Part shown: positions 9,628 to 18,572 of the stretch, piece by piece
Numbering within the stretch: the first letter of the stretch is position 1
How the letters are laid out: every line of letters starts with the position of its first letter
NCBI GenBank assembly: GCA_018242725.1
Contig: JAFEBI010000002.1
Location: 40,237 to 104,236 of the forward strand
Direction: 5' to 3'
From: Nitrospira sp.
GTDB taxonomy: Bacteria > Nitrospirota > Nitrospiria > Nitrospirales > Nitrospiraceae
DNA: 64,000 nt
Position numbers and translations under genes: made by a program
The notes under the pieces: generated by a model
What the model saw: the letters and a program-made list of their open reading frames with translations, nothing else
Database searches by the model: none
Told to the model about the DNA's origin: nothing

Positions 9628-10536
9628 ATGAATCACTCCCCATCCCGATCGTTCACGTCGATGTTGAGCATAGTCATACTGAGTTGCCTAGCCCTCTTGA
9701 TCGTTGGGTGTGCTGGCTCACACCCAACGATCCCTATTCAGGAAACATCTATTGGGTCGGTCTTCCTCGAACCTGTTTCAGACAGCTCCTTCCAGGCCTC
9801 GCATCCCATCAAACTGTCGGAAACGACGGTCGGAGATGTTTTGCGAGGCATCCACACCAAAGAAAAGGCCGGCTTCCTCTTGCTCCTGGGCAAAGCCGCG
9901 AAGTCTACCAATCTGAACGACATTCGAACCTTTTCCGAGGATGAGATTGCGTTCCTGACTCCCCACGTTACCGCTGCCCTGGCTCAAGCTAATTCCACTC
10001 AGCGAGTCGGGTTCCGCGTCCATTCCACCTCCTACATCACGTCATCAGCAAAGGCTGCCCAGCAACGAGAGACGACTGCGGGCTACTTGTTTGCGGACGG
10101 CCTGTCCCTGCATATCGTCTTGACGCAATACCGCCATTACCCCGGCAAGCGATCCACCGCCAGTCAAAAGGAGCCTCGCCCGCTCCCCGACGCCGATGGT
10201 CTCCGAGACCGGGAGGTGACATTCCTGCCGGAGGGGGCGGTTCGTTCCGACGTGTATGATCGATCGAGTTGGATTGGGAAATCAGAAGATCGGTCGCTCG
10301 CTATCGACTATCAACTCCTGGCGAGGCTGCTCACGCCGCCTCCACCGCCAACTCCACCTCCACAATCGGTCCCGGTGGTAACGGCACCGCCTCAAGCACC
10401 ACCAGTCGTCAAGCAGGACACTGAGCTGCAGGCATTTAAGGAAGAAATGAAGGCGCTGCGAAAGAAGGTCGACGAGCAGGAAGCCGAACTTCAGCGCCTG
10501 AAGAATCCACCGCTCAAGAAAAAGCCCACTCCGTAG
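9628..10536 (+). CDS. Hypothetical lipoprotein with proline-rich linker and coiled-coil tail
   Basis: 302 residues. The N terminus is a lipoprotein signal with lipobox LIVGC. The middle (about residues 30-215) matches no family I recognise and has alternating beta-like sequence. A proline-rich linker (PPPPPTPPP) follows, then a charged heptad-like segment (ELQAFKEEMKALRKKVDEQE), probably a coiled coil, and a Lys/Pro end. ATG 9628 gives the proper signal; an in-frame ATG lies 63 bases upstream. An outer-membrane lipoprotein that trimerises or contacts peptidoglycan is a guess. Confidence 0.8.
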   Translation: MNHSPSRSFTSMLSIVILSCLALLIVGCAGSHPTIPIQETSIGSVFLEPVSDSSFQASHPIKLSETTVGDVLRGIHTKEKAGFLLLLGKAAKSTNLNDIRTFSEDEIAFLTPHVTAALAQANSTQRVGFRVHSTSYITSSAKAAQQRETTAGYLFADGLSLHIVLTQYRHYPGKRSTASQKEPRPLPDADGLRDREVTFLPEGAVRSDVYDRSSWIGKSEDRSLAIDYQLLARLLTPPPPPTPPPQSVPVVTAPPQAPPVVKQDTELQAFKEEMKALRKKVDEQEAELQRLKNPPLKKKPTP

Positions 10537-10631
10537 CCAGCTGTGGCAGGCTGAGCATCAGGGAACAGCCCTGCTTCTGAAGACCGGAGCCAGAAGTGAG
10601 CCTACTCCATTCTATTGCGATAAGTGTTGTT

Positions 10632-11468
10632 TCAGGATTGAGCGGTCGGGGTCGGATCCAATACCTCTTCGAGAGGAACGGCCGTTTGCAGCTCGCCGTT
10701 CACTGATGGTTCTGCCTCTGCGTCCACCATGTGAACCTCCCCATCTGCAGACTGCATCTCATTACCGTCCATCGGTAAGAGTGCCTGTTCCGCCTCACCA
10801 AGCTCTTTGAACTCGCGCAGAGGAGGTAACTGCGAAAGATCACTCAACCCGAAATGCTCAAGAAAGAACTTGGTCGTCCCGTACATGATCGGCCGACCTG
10901 GGACTTCTTTGCGTCCAACGATTCGCACCAACTTACGCTCTAGCAGCGTGCGCAAAACACCAGAGGTTTCCACGCCCCGGATTTCTTCAATCTCCCCTCG
11001 CACCAGCGGCTGCTTGTACGCGATGATGGCCAAAGATTCCAGCGCGGATCGTGACAGCTTTGCTGCCGTCTTGGCCTTGTCCAATCGTTTCACCCAGGAG
11101 GCATAATCCTGCTTGGTCACAAGGCGATAGCCACCGGCGACCGCCACCAATCGCACTCCCCGCCCTTCTTGCTCAAGCCCCCGGCCGAGATGGTGCAAGG
11201 CCTCCTCGACCTCCCCTCTCGAGACCGTGCCTATCGCGGCGACAAGGCGCGTCACGGGCAGCGGCTCGGCTGAGACGAAGAGCAGTGCCTCCAGAATACC
11301 TTGAAGCTCGTCCATACTTTGGGGCCGATCATCAGCAAAGCTCTCCGAATGCGGCACTCCATTCGCCTCTTCCACTGCCACCACCATCTCTTCCATATTC
11401 ACCGCATGCATGGTTTCGGTTTCAGGCACATCTACCTCATGAACCACATCCGCCGTCAGTGGCGTCAT
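10632..11468 (-). CDS. scpB: Segregation and condensation protein ScpB
   Basis: Winged-helix partner of the ScpA kleisin in the SMC chromosome-condensation complex. The core includes ILEALLFVSAEPLPVTRL, ESLAIIAYKQPLVRGEIEEI and FFLEHFGLSDLSQLPPL, all standard ScpB. Acidic, low-complexity tails flank the core on both sides. ATG 11468 overlaps the scpA stop (ATGA) and is preceded by GGAGGGG; an earlier in-frame ATG at 11480 would add four residues. It lies directly after scpA. Confidence 0.95.
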   Translation of the reverse strand: MTPLTADVVHEVDVPETETMHAVNMEEMVVAVEEANGVPHSESFADDRPQSMDELQGILEALLFVSAEPLPVTRLVAAIGTVSRGEVEEALHHLGRGLEQEGRGVRLVAVAGGYRLVTKQDYASWVKRLDKAKTAAKLSRSALESLAIIAYKQPLVRGEIEEIRGVETSGVLRTLLERKLVRIVGRKEVPGRPIMYGTTKFFLEHFGLSDLSQLPPLREFKELGEAEQALLPMDGNEMQSADGEVHMVDAEAEPSVNGELQTAVPLEEVLDPTPTAQS

Positions 11469-12274
11469 GCTCCCCTCCATTCCGCATCAACATCGGCCAG
11501 TTCTGCAGGGTCAGGCACCAACGAAAACATCCGCGAGACCAGAATCGGCCCGAAGGTTTCGGCCTGGAACACTCGGGCGACTCGCAAACGCATCAATTCC
11601 AGCAACGCCAAAAACGTCACCACCACCACCATCCGATGGATCGACCCTTCGAACAGCGCTGCGAACGAGACTGAGTCTTTGCCTTCGAGCGTTTCCAGAA
11701 TGAGATTCATCCGTTCCCGAACAGTAAGATTGTCGGGCATGATCTCGATGAGCCGGCTGTCAGGATTACGTTCAAGCACTTTCTTGAGAGCATCAACCAG
11801 ATCGAACAATGAGACGTTTTCAAGAGGAAGATCCTCCTCGGCGACCGCTTCGGCCGGATAGACGTCTTCACGCCAAAAGATCTCACGCCACATTTTCTCT
11901 TGATCATCGAGCTGTCGCGCCGCCTCCTTGTAGGCCTTATATTCGAGCAACCGACGGACCAACTCTTCCCGTGGGTCTGGCCCCTCCTCTTCGTCGTCGG
12001 TGACCTCGTCAGCGGGCAACAGCATCTTGGACTTGATTTGCAACAGTGTCGCCGCCATCACCAGGAAATCTCCGGCGACATTGAGGTTGAGTTCTTCCAT
12101 CGCCTCCAGGTACTCGATGTACTGCTGGGTAATCATGGCGACCGGAATATCGTAGATATTGATCTCGTTTTTCTTTATGAGATGGAGCAGGAGGTCCAAC
12201 GGTCCTTCGAAATTTTCGATGCGGACCTTATACGGCAGCTCTGTTTGCTCAAACCCGTCGGCTTGGGATTCCAC
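11465..12274 (-). CDS. scpA: Segregation and condensation protein ScpA
   Basis: Kleisin subunit that bridges the SMC heads, 269 residues. The N terminus carries KVRIENFEGPLDLLLHLIKK followed by IYDIPVAMITQQYIEYL, the diagnostic ScpA pattern. The C-terminal winged-helix part has VVTFLALLELMRLRV. It is coupled to scpB by a four-base overlap. The conserved gene pair confirms both calls. Confidence 0.96.
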   Translation of the reverse strand: MESQADGFEQTELPYKVRIENFEGPLDLLLHLIKKNEINIYDIPVAMITQQYIEYLEAMEELNLNVAGDFLVMAATLLQIKSKMLLPADEVTDDEEEGPDPREELVRRLLEYKAYKEAARQLDDQEKMWREIFWREDVYPAEAVAEEDLPLENVSLFDLVDALKKVLERNPDSRLIEIMPDNLTVRERMNLILETLEGKDSVSFAALFEGSIHRMVVVVTFLALLELMRLRVARVFQAETFGPILVSRMFSLVPDPAELADVDAEWRGA

Positions 12275-13670: not shown

Positions 13671-14195
13671 CTAACTGTGCCGATAATCGTCGTCCAGCAA
13701 TTCTTCGGACTTGTCGATGAGCTCATCCCCGTCATCATCCGTGTCGAGATCCAACTCATCCCGCACGTCGTCTTCGTCAAGCTCATCTTCCATCTCTAAC
13801 TCATCATCAACGACATCCTCGTCTTCCAAATCAGCCTCATCCGGCTCCATCGGCATGGCCGGTTTCACCAAAGAGACGGCCTTTCGAGGGGTCATCTCCT
13901 CTTCGTCCACAACAGGCTTCGCCGGTGCGCTCGAAGGGGTGGACTTCTGGGGCGTCTTCTTAGTTGACCTGGCGACCGCTTTCTTCGCTGATTTGCTGGC
14001 TGGTTTCTTGGTCGCCGGTTTCTTCTTTGGAGCGGGTTTTGACGCCTTGACAACCGCATGCTTCTTCGCGGCCTTCTTCACCACTGCCTTCTTGGTCACC
14101 GCTTTCTTGGCGGCTGTTTTTTTCTTCGGCAACGGTGCGGCTTTTTTCGTCTTAGACGACGCTTTCGAGGCAGCTTTCTTCTTTTTGTTCGCCAT
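13671..14195 (-). CDS. Histone H1-like lysine/alanine-rich protein with acidic tail
   Basis: 174 residues from the ATG at 14195, which has AGGGA upstream. Residues ~2-95 are almost wholly Lys/Ala/Pro/Ser/Thr in KKAVTKKAVVKKAA-type repeats, like bacterial H1-like DNA-binding tails. Residues ~110-170 are the opposite, nearly all Asp/Glu (DELEMEDELDEDDVRDELD). Such two-faced proteins could bind DNA or RNA with the basic half and use the acidic half for release or partner binding. No globular domain is visible, so low-complexity drift is also possible. Confidence 0.75.
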   Translation of the reverse strand: MANKKKKAASKASSKTKKAAPLPKKKTAAKKAVTKKAVVKKAAKKHAVVKASKPAPKKKPATKKPASKSAKKAVARSTKKTPQKSTPSSAPAKPVVDEEEMTPRKAVSLVKPAMPMEPDEADLEDEDVVDDELEMEDELDEDDVRDELDLDTDDDGDELIDKSEELLDDDYRHS

Positions 14196-14504
14196 TCCGA
14201 TCCCTCCTCTTCGTTTCAGCGCGGCGCAACGGCCTCCATCTAGCATGAACGAACAGACTCTTGCAACCACTTCGATCATGATTTCTACGACCCTCCGAGG
14301 CTCTCATTACTTTGGGTTCGATAGAAACATCTGCGCTGTCGATGACGAGAAGGATGAACACCACCAGGTGCCTCATGTGCGCACGTCAAACTCTCGGCAG
14401 CAACATGCTATGATGATGGCCCAAAGAGGACACAGCTGAATCCTTAACCATTTTCAAGGCTCTTAATTAACCATCGATACATCGCACTGAGGAGTACGAT
14501 CCCC
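14196..14504. other. Divergent intergenic region, histone-like gene / cupredoxin gene
   Basis: 309 bases without a gene. The right end has GAGGAG ten bases before the cupredoxin GTG start. A TATGAT hexamer at 14411-14416 could be a -10 element for the rightward gene, but its upstream partner is weak. Nothing else recognised. Confidence 0.4.
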
Positions 14505-14882
14505 GTGAACCGACTGCATATCCTGGCCATCACCCTGGGGATTGGGGCTACCGTGGGAGGGCCAGCCCTTGATTTCTCCCCAGCCACACAAATTCTTATG
14601 GAAAATGGCTCACCTTATTACGTCCCGGCTGCCGCAACCGTGGTGAGTGGCACGCCCATCCGCTGGGAGAATCCAACACCAACGCACCACACTGTGACGC
14701 ATAATGGCTGTGTGAACGACGAGAGCACCTGCCTCTTCAACTCCGGAACGGTTCCTCCAGGAGGACAGTTCACCATCCAGGGCCTCCCTCCTGGTCGATA
14801 TGCCTATCACTGTGGGATCCATCCTATTATGCGAGGGCAGCTGATCGTGACCGAAGATTCCTCAACCCCCGCTCACTTGTAA
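14505..14882 (+). CDS. Secreted cupredoxin (plastocyanin/azurin-like type 1 copper protein)
   Basis: 125 residues with an N-terminal signal sequence. The copper site is visible: an upstream histidine in PTHHTVTHNGC, and YHCGIHPIMRG near the C terminus supplying Cys, His and Met in a C-x2-H-x2-M arrangement. This is the type 1 electron-transfer centre. The start is GTG with GAGGAG upstream. It lies about 80 bases before a methyltransferase fusion gene on the same strand and may share its transcript. A soluble periplasmic electron carrier is the likely role. Confidence 0.9.
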   Translation: MNRLHILAITLGIGATVGGPALDFSPATQILMENGSPYYVPAAATVVSGTPIRWENPTPTHHTVTHNGCVNDESTCLFNSGTVPPGGQFTIQGLPPGRYAYHCGIHPIMRGQLIVTEDSSTPAHL

Positions 14883-14961
14883 GACAACTCCCTTTGTCGC
14901 TTGCAGAGATGCCGATCGCTCCTGTAGCTTACCAACGGTCCTTCACACAGAACTTGTGATC

Positions 14962-16452
14962 ATGAAAACCATTGCCGCCATCCGCGATCCATTGATTTTG
15001 ACCGGAGAAACGCTGAACTTATTGGCCTGGTATATTCCGGACCTTGTCGCCTATCAGCACCAACCAGACGAATGGTGGCTGGCTCCCCTCGATGACGACC
15101 TCCCGTTGATCCGGCTAAACCAGACCGGGTTGGACCTGCTCAAGGCCATGAATGGCCATACAGCCGTGGGAACTCTTCTTGAACAATATGGCACGAAGAT
15201 CTGCGGGCCGGATGGACAGCCTGGATCCTGGCACTTGGAACGGTGGGCGACCCCCAACTACTCTCTTTGCTATTACGGAACTGAACCACCTGGAGGCCAC
15301 CGGCACAAAGCCAAGTGGGATGTCCTGCTTCAACAGGTCCGTGAAGGCTGGTCCGGGCAAGACGGCTTCGAAGGTGAGAACCACCTGGAAGACTTCCATC
15401 ACCACGAACTGACCGAGAACTCGGAAGACGACGGCCATTTTGACCTGATCGAAACCACAGTCTCTCATCTCCTCCGTGAACCAAGCGAGGCCTTGGACGG
15501 TCTGACGTATGGCCGACTGCTCATGCGACAACTCCGGCGACTCGGCTGGTTCACTCCTAAACCCAAAGTCCTGCTGGAGATCGGTGGCGGCCTCGGATAC
15601 CTTGCGCAGGAGCTCGGGAAGGATCTGCTTCCATTTGAGAAGCAAGGGATCACCTACCTCTCACTCGATATCACGCAACCATTTCTGAAGCGCCAACTTA
15701 CTCGAGCCAAGGCCGGAGGATGGACTGCCACCGGCACCAGGGCCAATGCTGAACAGCTGCCCTTTGCCGATCGCTCTGTCGATCTGGTGATCGACAATGA
15801 AAACATGGCCGACATGACGCCGGTGCAGCTGAGTAAGAAGGAACTGATATCTGGGACCGGAGAAACCCCACAACATCAGGAAGCGCTCGACTGGATCAGG
15901 CGGCTTCGCCTACCCATTGAGGCCAACCCACCGGATTCCGTGATCTTTAACTTAGGGCCGATTCGTTTTGTGGCCGAATTGTGGCGAGTTCTCAAACCGG
16001 GGGGGCGAGCGTTTCTCACCGAATTTGGCATCGAAGAGGGCTGGCCGGCTCCTGTGAAACTCCCGGGCCATACGGAGTACGAAGTGCAATACAGTCATCT
16101 TCGCCAAGCCGTGCGCTGGCTCGGATTTCAAGAGCGGTATCTCTCACTTCCACAGTTTCTCGAACTCAAACCTGATACAAAAGTCCTCTGCACCGGCGCA
16201 ACCTACACGATCCAACGGTTCTGTCAGGCCATCAACCACCCCTTCGCTGTGCGAGCTTACAGCGAGAAGGAATTACAACAGGCGTTAGGTGACCTTCTCC
16301 CCAAACTGCAGGGCCTCCACTACCACGACCTCGCCGACCCAGCCTGGTTCGGCCTGCAAGACTTCAAAGTATTGTTGCTCGAAAAACCAGGCGGCGCCCC
16401 GAAAGCCCAATTTACGGAGAACAAAGGCTATCGGTGGTATTCACAGAAGTAA
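14962..16452 (+). CDS. PqqD-like domain fused to a class I SAM methyltransferase
   Basis: 496 residues; GTG 14956 is an alternative start two codons upstream. The N-terminal region (about 35-80) reads PLIRLNQTGLDLLKAMNGHT followed by a VGTLLEQYG helix, resembling PqqD-type peptide-recognition domains. After a charged, His-rich linker, a class I methyltransferase follows: motif I LLEIGGGLGYLA (~200), LSLDIT for the acidic loop, VDLVIDNENM, and WRVLKPGGRAFLTEFG. Substrate is unknown. No radical SAM or obvious precursor peptide sits beside it. The methyltransferase call is firm; the PqqD-like call is by pattern only. Confidence 0.82.
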   Translation: MKTIAAIRDPLILTGETLNLLAWYIPDLVAYQHQPDEWWLAPLDDDLPLIRLNQTGLDLLKAMNGHTAVGTLLEQYGTKICGPDGQPGSWHLERWATPNYSLCYYGTEPPGGHRHKAKWDVLLQQVREGWSGQDGFEGENHLEDFHHHELTENSEDDGHFDLIETTVSHLLREPSEALDGLTYGRLLMRQLRRLGWFTPKPKVLLEIGGGLGYLAQELGKDLLPFEKQGITYLSLDITQPFLKRQLTRAKAGGWTATGTRANAEQLPFADRSVDLVIDNENMADMTPVQLSKKELISGTGETPQHQEALDWIRRLRLPIEANPPDSVIFNLGPIRFVAELWRVLKPGGRAFLTEFGIEEGWPAPVKLPGHTEYEVQYSHLRQAVRWLGFQERYLSLPQFLELKPDTKVLCTGATYTIQRFCQAINHPFAVRAYSEKELQQALGDLLPKLQGLHYHDLADPAWFGLQDFKVLLLEKPGGAPKAQFTENKGYRWYSQK

Positions 16453-16542: not shown

Positions 16543-17547
16543 TTACTTACCCCGAAAAGGTATGGCTGACACCGTGACATCCGTATCAATACCGTGGTTC
16601 TTCAACAGAATCTCAACTGCCTTCTTACGTTGTTCCTTATCCAGATGTGGGCTCACAATAACTCGTCGTATCGGGTGTGTTTCTAGCTTCTGATCTTCAA
16701 ACAGATGAATACATGGCACAGTTATTCCGTCACGAGAGAAAGCATATATTTTGCGAAAAGGCGTGGTGACCTCATTGGCTAGTTCTCGTTGAATTTTAGG
16801 TGATGGCTCACCTACTATTATTCGCACTTCTCTCTCCTCCCTGAAGCCTCTATGTTTCCAAAGTGCGGATAACACAGCAACACTGTCAAACGCTTTATAG
16901 TCTTCCCAAAACCTATCCCTCTTAAGACATTCAGCAAAGCTATCACGCACTCTCTGAAGGTGGTTCAGAATCTGTTTATCACAAACAAATGATAACCCTT
17001 CGCCACCCTCATCATATTGCACATCACCAAATACCAGCATCTCCTCAGAATCATGATAGTGTCCGGCGTCGTTCCGAAGAAGTGAGTCTAGCCCCTTCGT
17101 ATCAAAAACGATGGCATAGCCTCCATCCTGACCATATCCACGCCACTGACTCAGCAACCCATTCCGAGAAATCCATCCATCACTGGCCGTACAAAACGAC
17201 ACCACATAATGATCTTGCGTTTGTTCTTGTGCATCCTTGAAACCTGCACAAAACTTTTTCAACCACTCGTCCACCAAGTCATAGCCGTGTTGGCTTGCTG
17301 CTAAAATCTGGGCACTGAGCTCTTCAGATGTAGAAACGTATGTTTCAAGCTCTGACTTCAGTATTCTCGGCAGTCTATTATCCAAAAACCCTATCACTTC
17401 TTCTGAGTCATTAAGAAATCTGGCATGTGTAGCCCCTAGTATTTTGCTTGTCACAATCCCGGTAAGCCCATCGGCAGTTGTATAGTGCATCAGCTCTGGA
17501 TGCTCCTCATGTACGGGCTTATCGGATGGCAGACTTAGCTCCCTCAT
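16543..17547 (-). CDS. DUF2971 family protein
   Basis: 334 residues. The N terminus has HYTTADGLTGIVTSKILGAT followed by ARFLNDSEE, and the middle has VVSFCTASDGWISRNGLLSQ and WRGYGQDGGYAIVF, the pattern of DUF2971. The family has no settled biochemical role and often turns up in variable regions. Its DNA is clearly more A/T rich than the flanking genes, suggesting recent transfer. It stands alone, pointing left, between the methyltransferase and ppx/gppA genes. Confidence 0.8.
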   Translation of the reverse strand: MRELSLPSDKPVHEEHPELMHYTTADGLTGIVTSKILGATHARFLNDSEEVIGFLDNRLPRILKSELETYVSTSEELSAQILAASQHGYDLVDEWLKKFCAGFKDAQEQTQDHYVVSFCTASDGWISRNGLLSQWRGYGQDGGYAIVFDTKGLDSLLRNDAGHYHDSEEMLVFGDVQYDEGGEGLSFVCDKQILNHLQRVRDSFAECLKRDRFWEDYKAFDSVAVLSALWKHRGFREEREVRIIVGEPSPKIQRELANEVTTPFRKIYAFSRDGITVPCIHLFEDQKLETHPIRRVIVSPHLDKEQRKKAVEILLKNHGIDTDVTVSAIPFRGK

Positions 17548-17618: not shown

Positions 17619-18572
17619 TCATTTCCTGATTTGTGTTGTTAGATTAAGCAGCACCCCTTCTCTTAATCCCAAATCGCTCACCAGACACTCTTTCTGACCC
17701 AATGTCTCCATGATCGTTCGAATAATGATCGCCCCAGCGGCGATGACTTCTTCGCGGTTCTTCTCCAGACCAGGCAGGCCGATGCGATCGGTCTTTGCTC
17801 GACTCAGCAATGTCTGTTCGAGTTCTTGGATCCGGTCGAGCTTCAGCACATAGTTGTGAATGCGAGCTGGTTCGTAGGATTGAAGCTTCTGAACCATGGC
17901 GGCAAGAGCAGTAATTGTTCCAGCCGTCCCAACAAATGTCGCTTGCTGATAGTCGTCCATGTTCGCCATAGCCGCCTTAGTTTCTCTGGCCACCCACTCG
18001 CGCGCACGACGCACTTCTTCTCCAGTCGGAGGGTCATGCCGCAAGAGGCGTTCACAGAGTCGGACAACTCCGATATCGAACGACTGAACAATGGGCTTGT
18101 GCCCAGGCCGATCCAGGATGAATTCCGTACTGCCGCCACCGATATCCAGCGCCAGAATATCCGTCACTCCAACTGGCAAGCCGGAACGAATACCGAGTAA
18201 TGTCCGCCGCGCTTCTTCCTCGCCTGAGATAAGTTCCACATCAAAACCACATTCTGTTTTGACTCGTGCCAAGAACCCTGCTCGATTGCTGGCATCGCGG
18301 ACGGCACTCGTTGCCACGACAGCGGTTGTTTCAACTTGATGACTGTCGATGACTTTCCGCCACTCTTGAAGACAAGTGATCACGCGATCCATCGCGGCCG
18401 GGCTTAGTCGTTTTGTCTGATCAACGCCTTCTCCCAGCCGAAGAATACGTCGTTCAGATCGAAGCTCTTTAAGGGGATGCCCAGGAGTATGCGCTGCAAT
18501 CAATAAACGACAGGTGAGTGTTCCGATATCGATACCAGCCAATCGGCGCGTACGTTTCGCCGGCTCACTCAT
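17619..18572 (-). CDS. Ppx/GppA phosphatase family protein
   Basis: 317 residues, the short, single catalytic-module form. It shows the ASKHA-fold phosphate loops IDIGTLTCRLLIA at the N terminus and ALDIGGGSTEFILD near residue 145, plus TAGTITALAAM. These enzymes remove terminal phosphate from polyphosphate or pppGpp; which substrate applies here cannot be told. The start overlaps the end of the preceding 107-residue gene by four bases. Confidence 0.93.
   Translation of the reverse strand: MSEPAKRTRRLAGIDIGTLTCRLLIAAHTPGHPLKELRSERRILRLGEGVDQTKRLSPAAMDRVITCLQEWRKVIDSHQVETTAVVATSAVRDASNRAGFLARVKTECGFDVELISGEEEARRTLLGIRSGLPVGVTDILALDIGGGSTEFILDRPGHKPIVQSFDIGVVRLCERLLRHDPPTGEEVRRAREWVARETKAAMANMDDYQQATFVGTAGTITALAAMVQKLQSYEPARIHNYVLKLDRIQELEQTLLSRAKTDRIGLPGLEKNREEVIAAGAIIIRTIMETLGQKECLVSDLGLREGVLLNLTTQIRK

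Follow-up and report, generated by a model that had tools for sequence, protein, structure and literature searches.

A PqqD/RRE-like domain joined to a MidA-like methyltransferase in Nitrospirales, and toxin-antitoxin cassettes between displaced copies of its gene end

What is the task of an enzyme that appears to join a peptide-binding fold to a methyltransferase, and why do short gene units stand behind its gene in so many related genomes? Both questions are raised by a window of 64,000 nucleotides (nt) from a 4.0-Mb, Nitrospira-type genome (Nitrospira sp., GenBank assembly GCA_018242725.1, contig JAFEBI010000002.1), in which a cupredoxin open reading frame (ORF) and, after a gap of 73 nt, a methyltransferase ORF lie on the same strand, in the order and at the places that an earlier note on this DNA had given. 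That note, made from the letters alone, saw in the longer protein a PqqD-type recognition domain fused to a class I methyltransferase that might modify a peptide or protein. Our favored reading, to which structure models and gene distribution lead us with a probability of about one-half, is that the 498-residue protein is a Nitrospirales-specific methyltransferase of a conserved cellular protein (or large peptide), guided by a recognition element (RRE) of the kind that serves ribosomally synthesized and post-translationally modified peptides (RiPPs). The features on which this reading draws are as follows.

14505 to 14882, plus strand: type 1 cupredoxin of 125 residues, secreted-looking (signal peptide by eye), with an invariant H...C..H..M copper-ligand pattern
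14956 to 16452, plus strand: RRE-like domain plus class I (MidA-like) methyltransferase, 498 residues
15043 to 15246, plus strand: PqqD/RRE-like region, residues ~30 to 97, from the order of strands and helices in two models and from Foldseek and VIA matches
15361 to 16398, plus strand: MidA-like methyltransferase domain, residues 136 to 481, from a VIA match to 5zu0 and an hhalign match to MidA proteins

The methyltransferase gene is present in 52 of the 59 relatives. Of 295 genomes taken from the phylum 96 have it, every one of them in the window's order, Nitrospirales, and none of those from other classes does. It is single copy if split genes, short 3' copies, and one decayed partial copy (in G127) are set aside. 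Protein identity is 76 to 95% among the named loci and approximately 56 to 62% in two sister families (f2 and f3, the window's own family being f1), and mean column identity reaches 74% over 28 members, with many invariant residues in both halves. We found no report of this methyltransferase in the open-licence literature. Because the gene is nearly universal in the order and single copy, and because no pathway genes were found beside it, a natural-product role is disfavored.

The catalytic half of the fusion is the clearer one. Methyltransf_11 of Pfam covers residues 207 to 282 (E 2.7e-10), and the protein has a motif for a predicted S-adenosylmethionine (SAM) site; NCBIfam returned methyltransferase matches only, all below cut-off. 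When the full-length model was compared with known structures by VIA, the best matches were the MidA group: 5zu0 (Z 19.2 over 270 residues, root-mean-square deviation 3.9), 5ztz (19.0), 4f3n (18.8), 4g67 (18.4), and 1zkd (17.2). The first entry outside that group has a Z of 16.2, and many methyltransferases of various kinds trail behind it at ~15. Foldseek separates the group less well (4f3n at 2.4e-9 versus SpnF at 2.9e-9). Among sequence features, hhalign pairs DNENMADMTPV of our family with the NE..D..PV motif (NEL.D..PV) of MidA. We therefore place the modeled catalytic domain in class I, structurally closest to the MidA/NDUFAF7 protein arginine methyltransferases (COG1565, PF02636).

The N-terminal 180 residues have no significant Pfam match. 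Their conserved pattern, PD....E..L....LN..G..LL..M.G..T...L, is in register with PqqD. PMC12710340 names strands followed by helices as the order required of an RRE (three of each, a winged helix); two models suggest this order, though at a pLDDT of ~57. The full-length model places strands at residues 31 to 36, 39 to 42, and 52 to 54 and helices at 56 to 64 and 67 to 78. Because the VIA list of the full-length model barely tests the N terminus, the domain was also modeled alone (residues 15 to 140, 34 sequences), which again gave three strands, then helices (pTM 0.55). For this isolated domain the top Foldseek match is LynD (E 0.0076, probability 0.99), ahead of TruD, GdmN, ThcOx, and TigE. 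VIA returned 32 rows, 20 of which are, by our own count, RiPP maturation proteins or stand-alone RREs, each presumably containing an RRE; Z is highest for TigE (5.5), followed by LynD (4.5), the PbtF RRE (4.5), TbiB1 (4.0), and MePqqD (3.6). The rows outside the RiPP group, some of which rank high, are the GdmN/NovN carbamoyltransferases, Rv2067c, Rickettsia PKMT1/PKMT2, and GATOR1. GdmN may fit the pattern, since RREs fused to carbamoyltransferases are reported in PMC12710340. Rickettsia PKMT1/PKMT2 and Mycobacterium Rv2067c, counted as methyltransferases by title or common name, offer a structural precedent in that they, too, hold a segment that matches the RRE-like model, but this segment is C-terminal or internal in them and N-terminal here, and their Z is just 3.2 to 4.8. 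A low-confidence model that picks out one functional class is, in our judgment, decent but not decisive evidence for an RRE.

A number of results weigh against our reading. PF05402, the PqqD family, is absent from the Pfam families listed for the 498-residue protein up to E 10, and a search of the whole genome with it gave no match at E ≤0.001. When the N-terminal region was compared by hhalign with the PqqD proteins of the phylum, PD..E..LN..G..G fell in register, but at a probability of 3% and an E of 0.004, which is not significant; other segments of the protein gave E of at least 0.2. The isolated model has a low confidence (pLDDT 57), its Foldseek search returned nothing at E ≤0.001, and its best VIA Z is 5.5. 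A PDB sequence search with the family profile found no RRE protein, its better matches being to the methyltransferase domain. On the catalytic side, the hhalign comparison of our family (probability 93, E 2.6e-7, residues 185 to 366) covered 29 MidA proteins as the one methyltransferase family, PF02636 is not among the Pfam matches of the protein, and a true MidA is encoded elsewhere in the same genome (contig C29). The fold match on the one hand and the negative PF02636 result and separate MidA on the other make the architecture MidA-like yet outside the MidA family, from which it also differs by its additional N-terminal domain. Lastly, different families have different upstream genes, which do not point to any one substrate. 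The earlier note's class I methyltransferase is well borne out, and its PqqD-type domain is suggested by fold order and by structure matches to RRE-bearing enzymes (LynD, TruD, ThcOx, TigE, TbiB1, and MePqqD), the comparison that the note had proposed as a check, and not by a sequence match to PqqD. The window protein also differs from those enzymes in having no RiPP neighbors that we could find and in its fusion to a MidA-like methyltransferase.

A peptide or protein substrate is likely because a PqqD/RRE-like fold is fused to a class I methyltransferase, and to this extent the earlier note's proposal holds, while both candidates that it named, the cupredoxin and an adjoining small peptide, have weakened. 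According to our reading, the winged helix would bind a short stretch of the target along its third strand and helix, and the C-terminal two-thirds, a SAM-dependent MidA/NDUFAF7-like domain, would methylate a side chain of the tethered target; the protein would be a core enzyme whose target is a conserved protein of the cell, and not a RiPP tailoring enzyme. SAM use, substrate, and chemistry are what we infer here from the genes, their distribution and neighbors, and the similarity of folds.

The neighbors bear on what the target might be. The 125-residue protein matches Cupredoxin_1 above the family cut-off (E 4.2e-7), and all 91 related sequences keep its His62, His66, Cys69, Cys76, Cys103, His106, and Met109 without change; the copper ligands of type 1 cupredoxins are His, Cys, His, and Met, and the note's identification is sound. 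A cupredoxin match lies just upstream of the methyltransferase in 91 of 97 f1 loci (100 loci less L205 to L207, which are f3), so that the random neighbors by which the note would have been refuted are not what is seen in the family. Six f1 loci lack it: the contig extends <260 nt upstream of the methyltransferase in L059 and L101 and 718 nt in L070, and there is room for a cupredoxin in L081, L085, and L197. In f2 and f3 no cupredoxin lies beside the methyltransferase, though 18 of their 20 genomes keep the latter; homologs away from the methyltransferase are present in f3, and f2 has weak matches only. A heme-oxygenase-like oxidase stands directly upstream instead in 14 of these 18 genomes (Haem_oxygenas_2, E 1.6e-21 and 3.8e-24 for two members), and the 14 sequences share invariant Glu/His positions. 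All 14 close homologs of the oxidase (at least 56% identity, 59 genomes) adjoin the methyltransferase, and no f1 homolog exceeds 28% identity. The arrangement recalls the PqqC-PqqD gene pair, in that a PqqC-superfamily oxidase (Haem_oxygenas_2, TENA_THI-4) directly precedes a PqqD-like domain, but the models that the oxidase resembles, at scores below their cut-offs, are those of CADD/BesC and not the PqqC equivalog, and the PqqD-like part belongs to a methyltransferase fusion. This swap of oxidase for cupredoxin may place the enzyme near redox-protein or metalloprotein maturation. In one f2 genome, pqqC and pqqB (NCBIfam equivalogs above cut-off) lie at positions 9922 to 11606 of locus L114, ~2.6 kb downstream of the methyltransferase.

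The note's remark that no radical SAM partner is in sight is correct for the contig (C22), which has none of the 23 radical SAM genes of the genome, radical SAM being the maturation family that the scan for partners covered. Its suggestion of a small precursor peptide beside the gene has fared poorly: no conserved small intergenic ORF was found near the window gene, and the sole conserved small frame overlaps the region of a lysine-rich gene. The latter (13671 to 14279, minus strand, divergent from the cupredoxin) has a lysine/alanine-rich, histone-like N terminus and an acidic C terminus and is conserved in close relatives only.

Three other accounts of the enzyme deserve to be weighed on this evidence. 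The N-terminal third might be a family-specific domain and not an RRE, with the enzyme methylating a quinone, a lipid, or some other small molecule, which would suit the negative PqqD hidden Markov model, the weak hhalign result, the low pLDDT, and the fact that generic small-molecule methyltransferases also reach a Z of ~15 and that Foldseek puts SpnF beside the MidA group. Most fold matches of the isolated domain are nevertheless RRE-bearing proteins, and the leading MidA-type entries outscore the others by ~3 Z units, so that we consider this account doubtful, if deserving of some weight. True RiPP tailoring, in which the RRE binds the leader of a precursor encoded elsewhere and the methyltransferase modifies its core, seems to us rather improbable. 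The fold and the RiPP enzymes that top the structure matches speak for it, as do six relatives (G030, G022, G025, G149, G113, and G168) in which stand-alone PF05402 genes share a contig with the methyltransferase at a distance of 13 to 30 kb, but no conserved small ORF adjoins the methyltransferase, the window's own genome has no PF05402 gene and its contig no radical SAM gene, and a single-copy core distribution would be atypical, most RiPP genes not being distributed in that way. There is, finally, a slim chance that the methyltransferase acts on the cupredoxin or needs it as an obligate partner. The two genes adjoin on one strand and stay together in nearly all f1 loci; against this stand the f2 and f3 methyltransferases, which have no adjoining cupredoxin and mostly an oxidase in its place, the weak f2 cupredoxin matches, and the probable export of the cupredoxin from a cell whose methyltransferase looks cytoplasmic (both judged by eye). 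As an obligate substrate, the cupredoxin is unlikely.

The second question concerns the other end of the gene, where three further features matter.

16340 to 16452, plus strand: docking end, the final 113 nt of the methyltransferase gene, a type of segment that recurs downstream in related genomes and is single copy in the window
16543 to 17547, minus strand: DUF2971 gene (DUF2971 E 1.4e-8), in the cassette position between methyltransferase and ppx
17619 to 18572, minus strand: ppx-type phosphatase (named by eye), the conserved right flank

The ppx gene is the conserved downstream neighbor of the methyltransferase in many f1 and f3 loci, and in several (e.g., L102, L073, and L068) it lies 24 to 150 nt past the methyltransferase stop, which defines an empty site. 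In many genomes a protein search found extra matches to residues 445 to 498 downstream of the gene, and nucleotide searches with every gene end as query turned up one or more displaced methyltransferase 3' ends in 29 of 99 related loci, a count in which some contigs figure twice (L098/L128 and L107/L129) and many loci end too early to tell. All 43 displaced copies listed are downstream of the gene and on its strand. They measure ~30 to 200 nt, with common left bounds at approximately −60 to −70 and −112 to −130 from the stop. Short units fill the intervals, mostly toxin-antitoxin modules of ~1 kb (e.g., in L034, L035, L037, L044, L072, and L103). Ten chosen cassette proteins were scanned against Pfam, which identified a nucleotidyltransferase (DUF2204, weak AbiEii), Gp49, HTH_37, HTH_3 (HigA-like), a HigB-like toxin, RelB-like and PIN proteins, and a sugar-transfer ATP-grasp; two small partner proteins among the ten had no match. 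The order of cassettes varies: nucleotidyltransferase, Gp49/HTH_37, and HigBA in L034; nucleotidyltransferase and HigBA in L035; HigA-like and nucleotidyltransferase in L103; and RelB-like and Gp49 in L072. The displaced end that follows a nucleotidyltransferase unit usually starts at −53 to −72 and the one after HigBA at −112 to −130; exceptions occur, as with Gp49, at −114 to −120 but at −69 in L072. Inserts other than toxin-antitoxin modules are long genes in L043 and L058, a transposase-like ORF in L051, and other genes in L082 and L111. The window itself has no second copy of the methyltransferase 3' end; its DUF2971 gene occupies the cassette place, and homologs of that gene follow a displaced end in L200 (54% identity) and occur past displaced ends in L031 and L052 (48 to 49%).

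Genes resembling sugar-transfer-associated ATP-grasp proteins also occur at the cassette position in L044 (two in tandem), L049 (PF14397), L050, and L055. A 129-nt palindrome past the methyltransferase stop (e.g., L046, 6492 to 6620; −71 kcal/mol in L046) was considered as a recombination site and rejected, because it is a dispersed genus-level repeat found in many places in 32 of 59 genomes, mostly in several copies each, and is thus not specific to this site.

Do the same cassettes behave in this way at other genes? Distant copies carry other gene-end tags, at a lon-like gene (L217) and a DUF3422 gene (L219), and in the window's own genome (L257, contig C11, ~176 to 180 kb) a 247-residue gene is followed by HigB-HigA and then by 66 nt that repeat the 3' end of the 247-residue gene at 91% identity. 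The end of a sulfite-oxidase-like gene is repeated around a toxin-antitoxin module in L248; lon and sulfite oxidase were named by eye. No repeat was found at L218 and L220, where the nucleotidyltransferase stands beside a DUF3422-like gene, and in L255 and L258 a whole Nudix-like gene is present on both sides of a HigBA unit. Direct repeats of at least 40 nt bracket 10 of 28 HigB loci, 5 of 23 nucleotidyltransferase loci, and 7 of 25 HigA loci, versus 1 of 60 controls, the controls being two families and the nucleotidyltransferase set including loci at the methyltransferase itself (for example, L221, L223, and L230). The bracketing rule was adopted because a PqqD control set had given 3 positives in 30, mostly repeated paralogs. 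Pooled, with one overlap between the toxin and antitoxin sets (L257/L291) counted once, although others may remain, and two loci at the methyltransferase (L276 and L283) dropped beforehand, the comparison is 21 of 75 versus 1 of 60 (p 1.3e-5); some of these repeats do not end at a gene stop, and when a gene stop is demanded it is 14 of 75 versus 1 of 60 (p 0.0017).

Identity profiles indicate that cassettes travel. Between L034 and L037 the methyltransferase gene is mostly 82 to 89% identical, rising near its 3' end; the cassettes are mostly 97 to 100% identical over ~2.3 kb (two bins at 92 to 94%), after which identity falls to 72%. A HigBA cassette in third place in L034 is 95.6% identical to the one in second place in L035, the methyltransferase genes being ~82 to 89% identical, and L072 and L033 share a RelB-like cassette at 92 to 98% versus a methyltransferase gene mostly at 78 to 84%. 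For such pairs, seven in all, which were chosen and not sampled and on which the argument rests, movement between species as units appears well supported. Purely vertical descent was considered and is countered by these seven pairs. Part of the history may still be vertical, because the nucleotidyltransferases and methyltransferases of 10 loci vary together in identity (rho 0.66, 45 pairs). Among the 59 genomes, the full-length close relatives of the nucleotidyltransferase (at least 80%, 7 places) and of HigA (at least 84%, 5 places) are all at the methyltransferase gene or on contigs carrying its 3' end. The idea that the gene's own 3' end would look foreign after cassette entry was dropped: in close pairs the last bin is usually little more divergent than the rest, and a clear step of identity at the gene end is seen in chosen pairs only, such as L034/L037.

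From these repeats and their cargo we tentatively propose, at somewhat less than even odds, that the 60- to 130-nt gene end serves as the address tag of a ~1-kb toxin-antitoxin mobile unit that has no recombinase of its own and builds integron-like arrays through RecA. A circle or fragment carrying module and tag would recombine homologously into a matching gene end, leaving the host protein intact and displacing the old gene end downstream. Recombination between the repeats would normally remove the cassette, but the toxin would kill revertants and so lock the unit in; repeated entry would yield arrays that pass between Nitrospira species, with a core gene and RecA in place of attC and integrase, and the same toxin-antitoxin families would act at other genes with other tags. 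A competing view sees in the gene's 3' end the attB site used by a site-specific integrase, and in the cassettes the cargo or remains of ordinary integrative elements. It draws on the constant downstream, same-strand position of the displaced ends and on the familiar habit of genomic islands, many of which integrate in gene 3' ends and restore them. We regard it as unlikely. One att core does not fit left ends that differ between cassette families (nucleotidyltransferase at ~−53 to −72 versus HigBA at −112 to −130), toxin-antitoxin modules at other places bear 3' ends from different genes, and no integrase was noticed among the cassette ORFs read by eye, without a dedicated search for an integron integrase or attC.

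Two known systems offer parallels to the RecA-based arrays that we propose. Restriction-modification systems are reported to insert with long, variable target duplications on the order of 100 bp (PMC3874152, citing Nobusato 2000 and Furuta 2010). They share with the present units an addiction module between direct repeats of variable length, and here too copies of the target flank the module (the 29 of 99 loci) and relatives keep an empty site; the differences are that toxin-antitoxin modules are involved, that the target is a gene 3' end, that several stand in tandem at one gene, and that they spread between species. Toxin-antitoxin cassettes are thought to stabilize superintegrons (PMC2654758), and the Vibrio arrays likewise consist of cassettes thought to resist loss, but the unit boundary here is the 3' end of a host gene. 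We found no report of toxin-antitoxin modules at this methyltransferase gene in the open-licence literature.

If our reading of the enzyme is right, an RRE would serve a housekeeping protein modification, and not a natural product, across nearly all Nitrospirales, an order known for nitrite oxidation and complete ammonia oxidation (comammox). The arrays behind its gene bear on how chromosomal toxin-antitoxin modules without a recombinase move and persist, and because their junctions are precise and can be compared across dozens of genomes, both entry and retention are directly testable.

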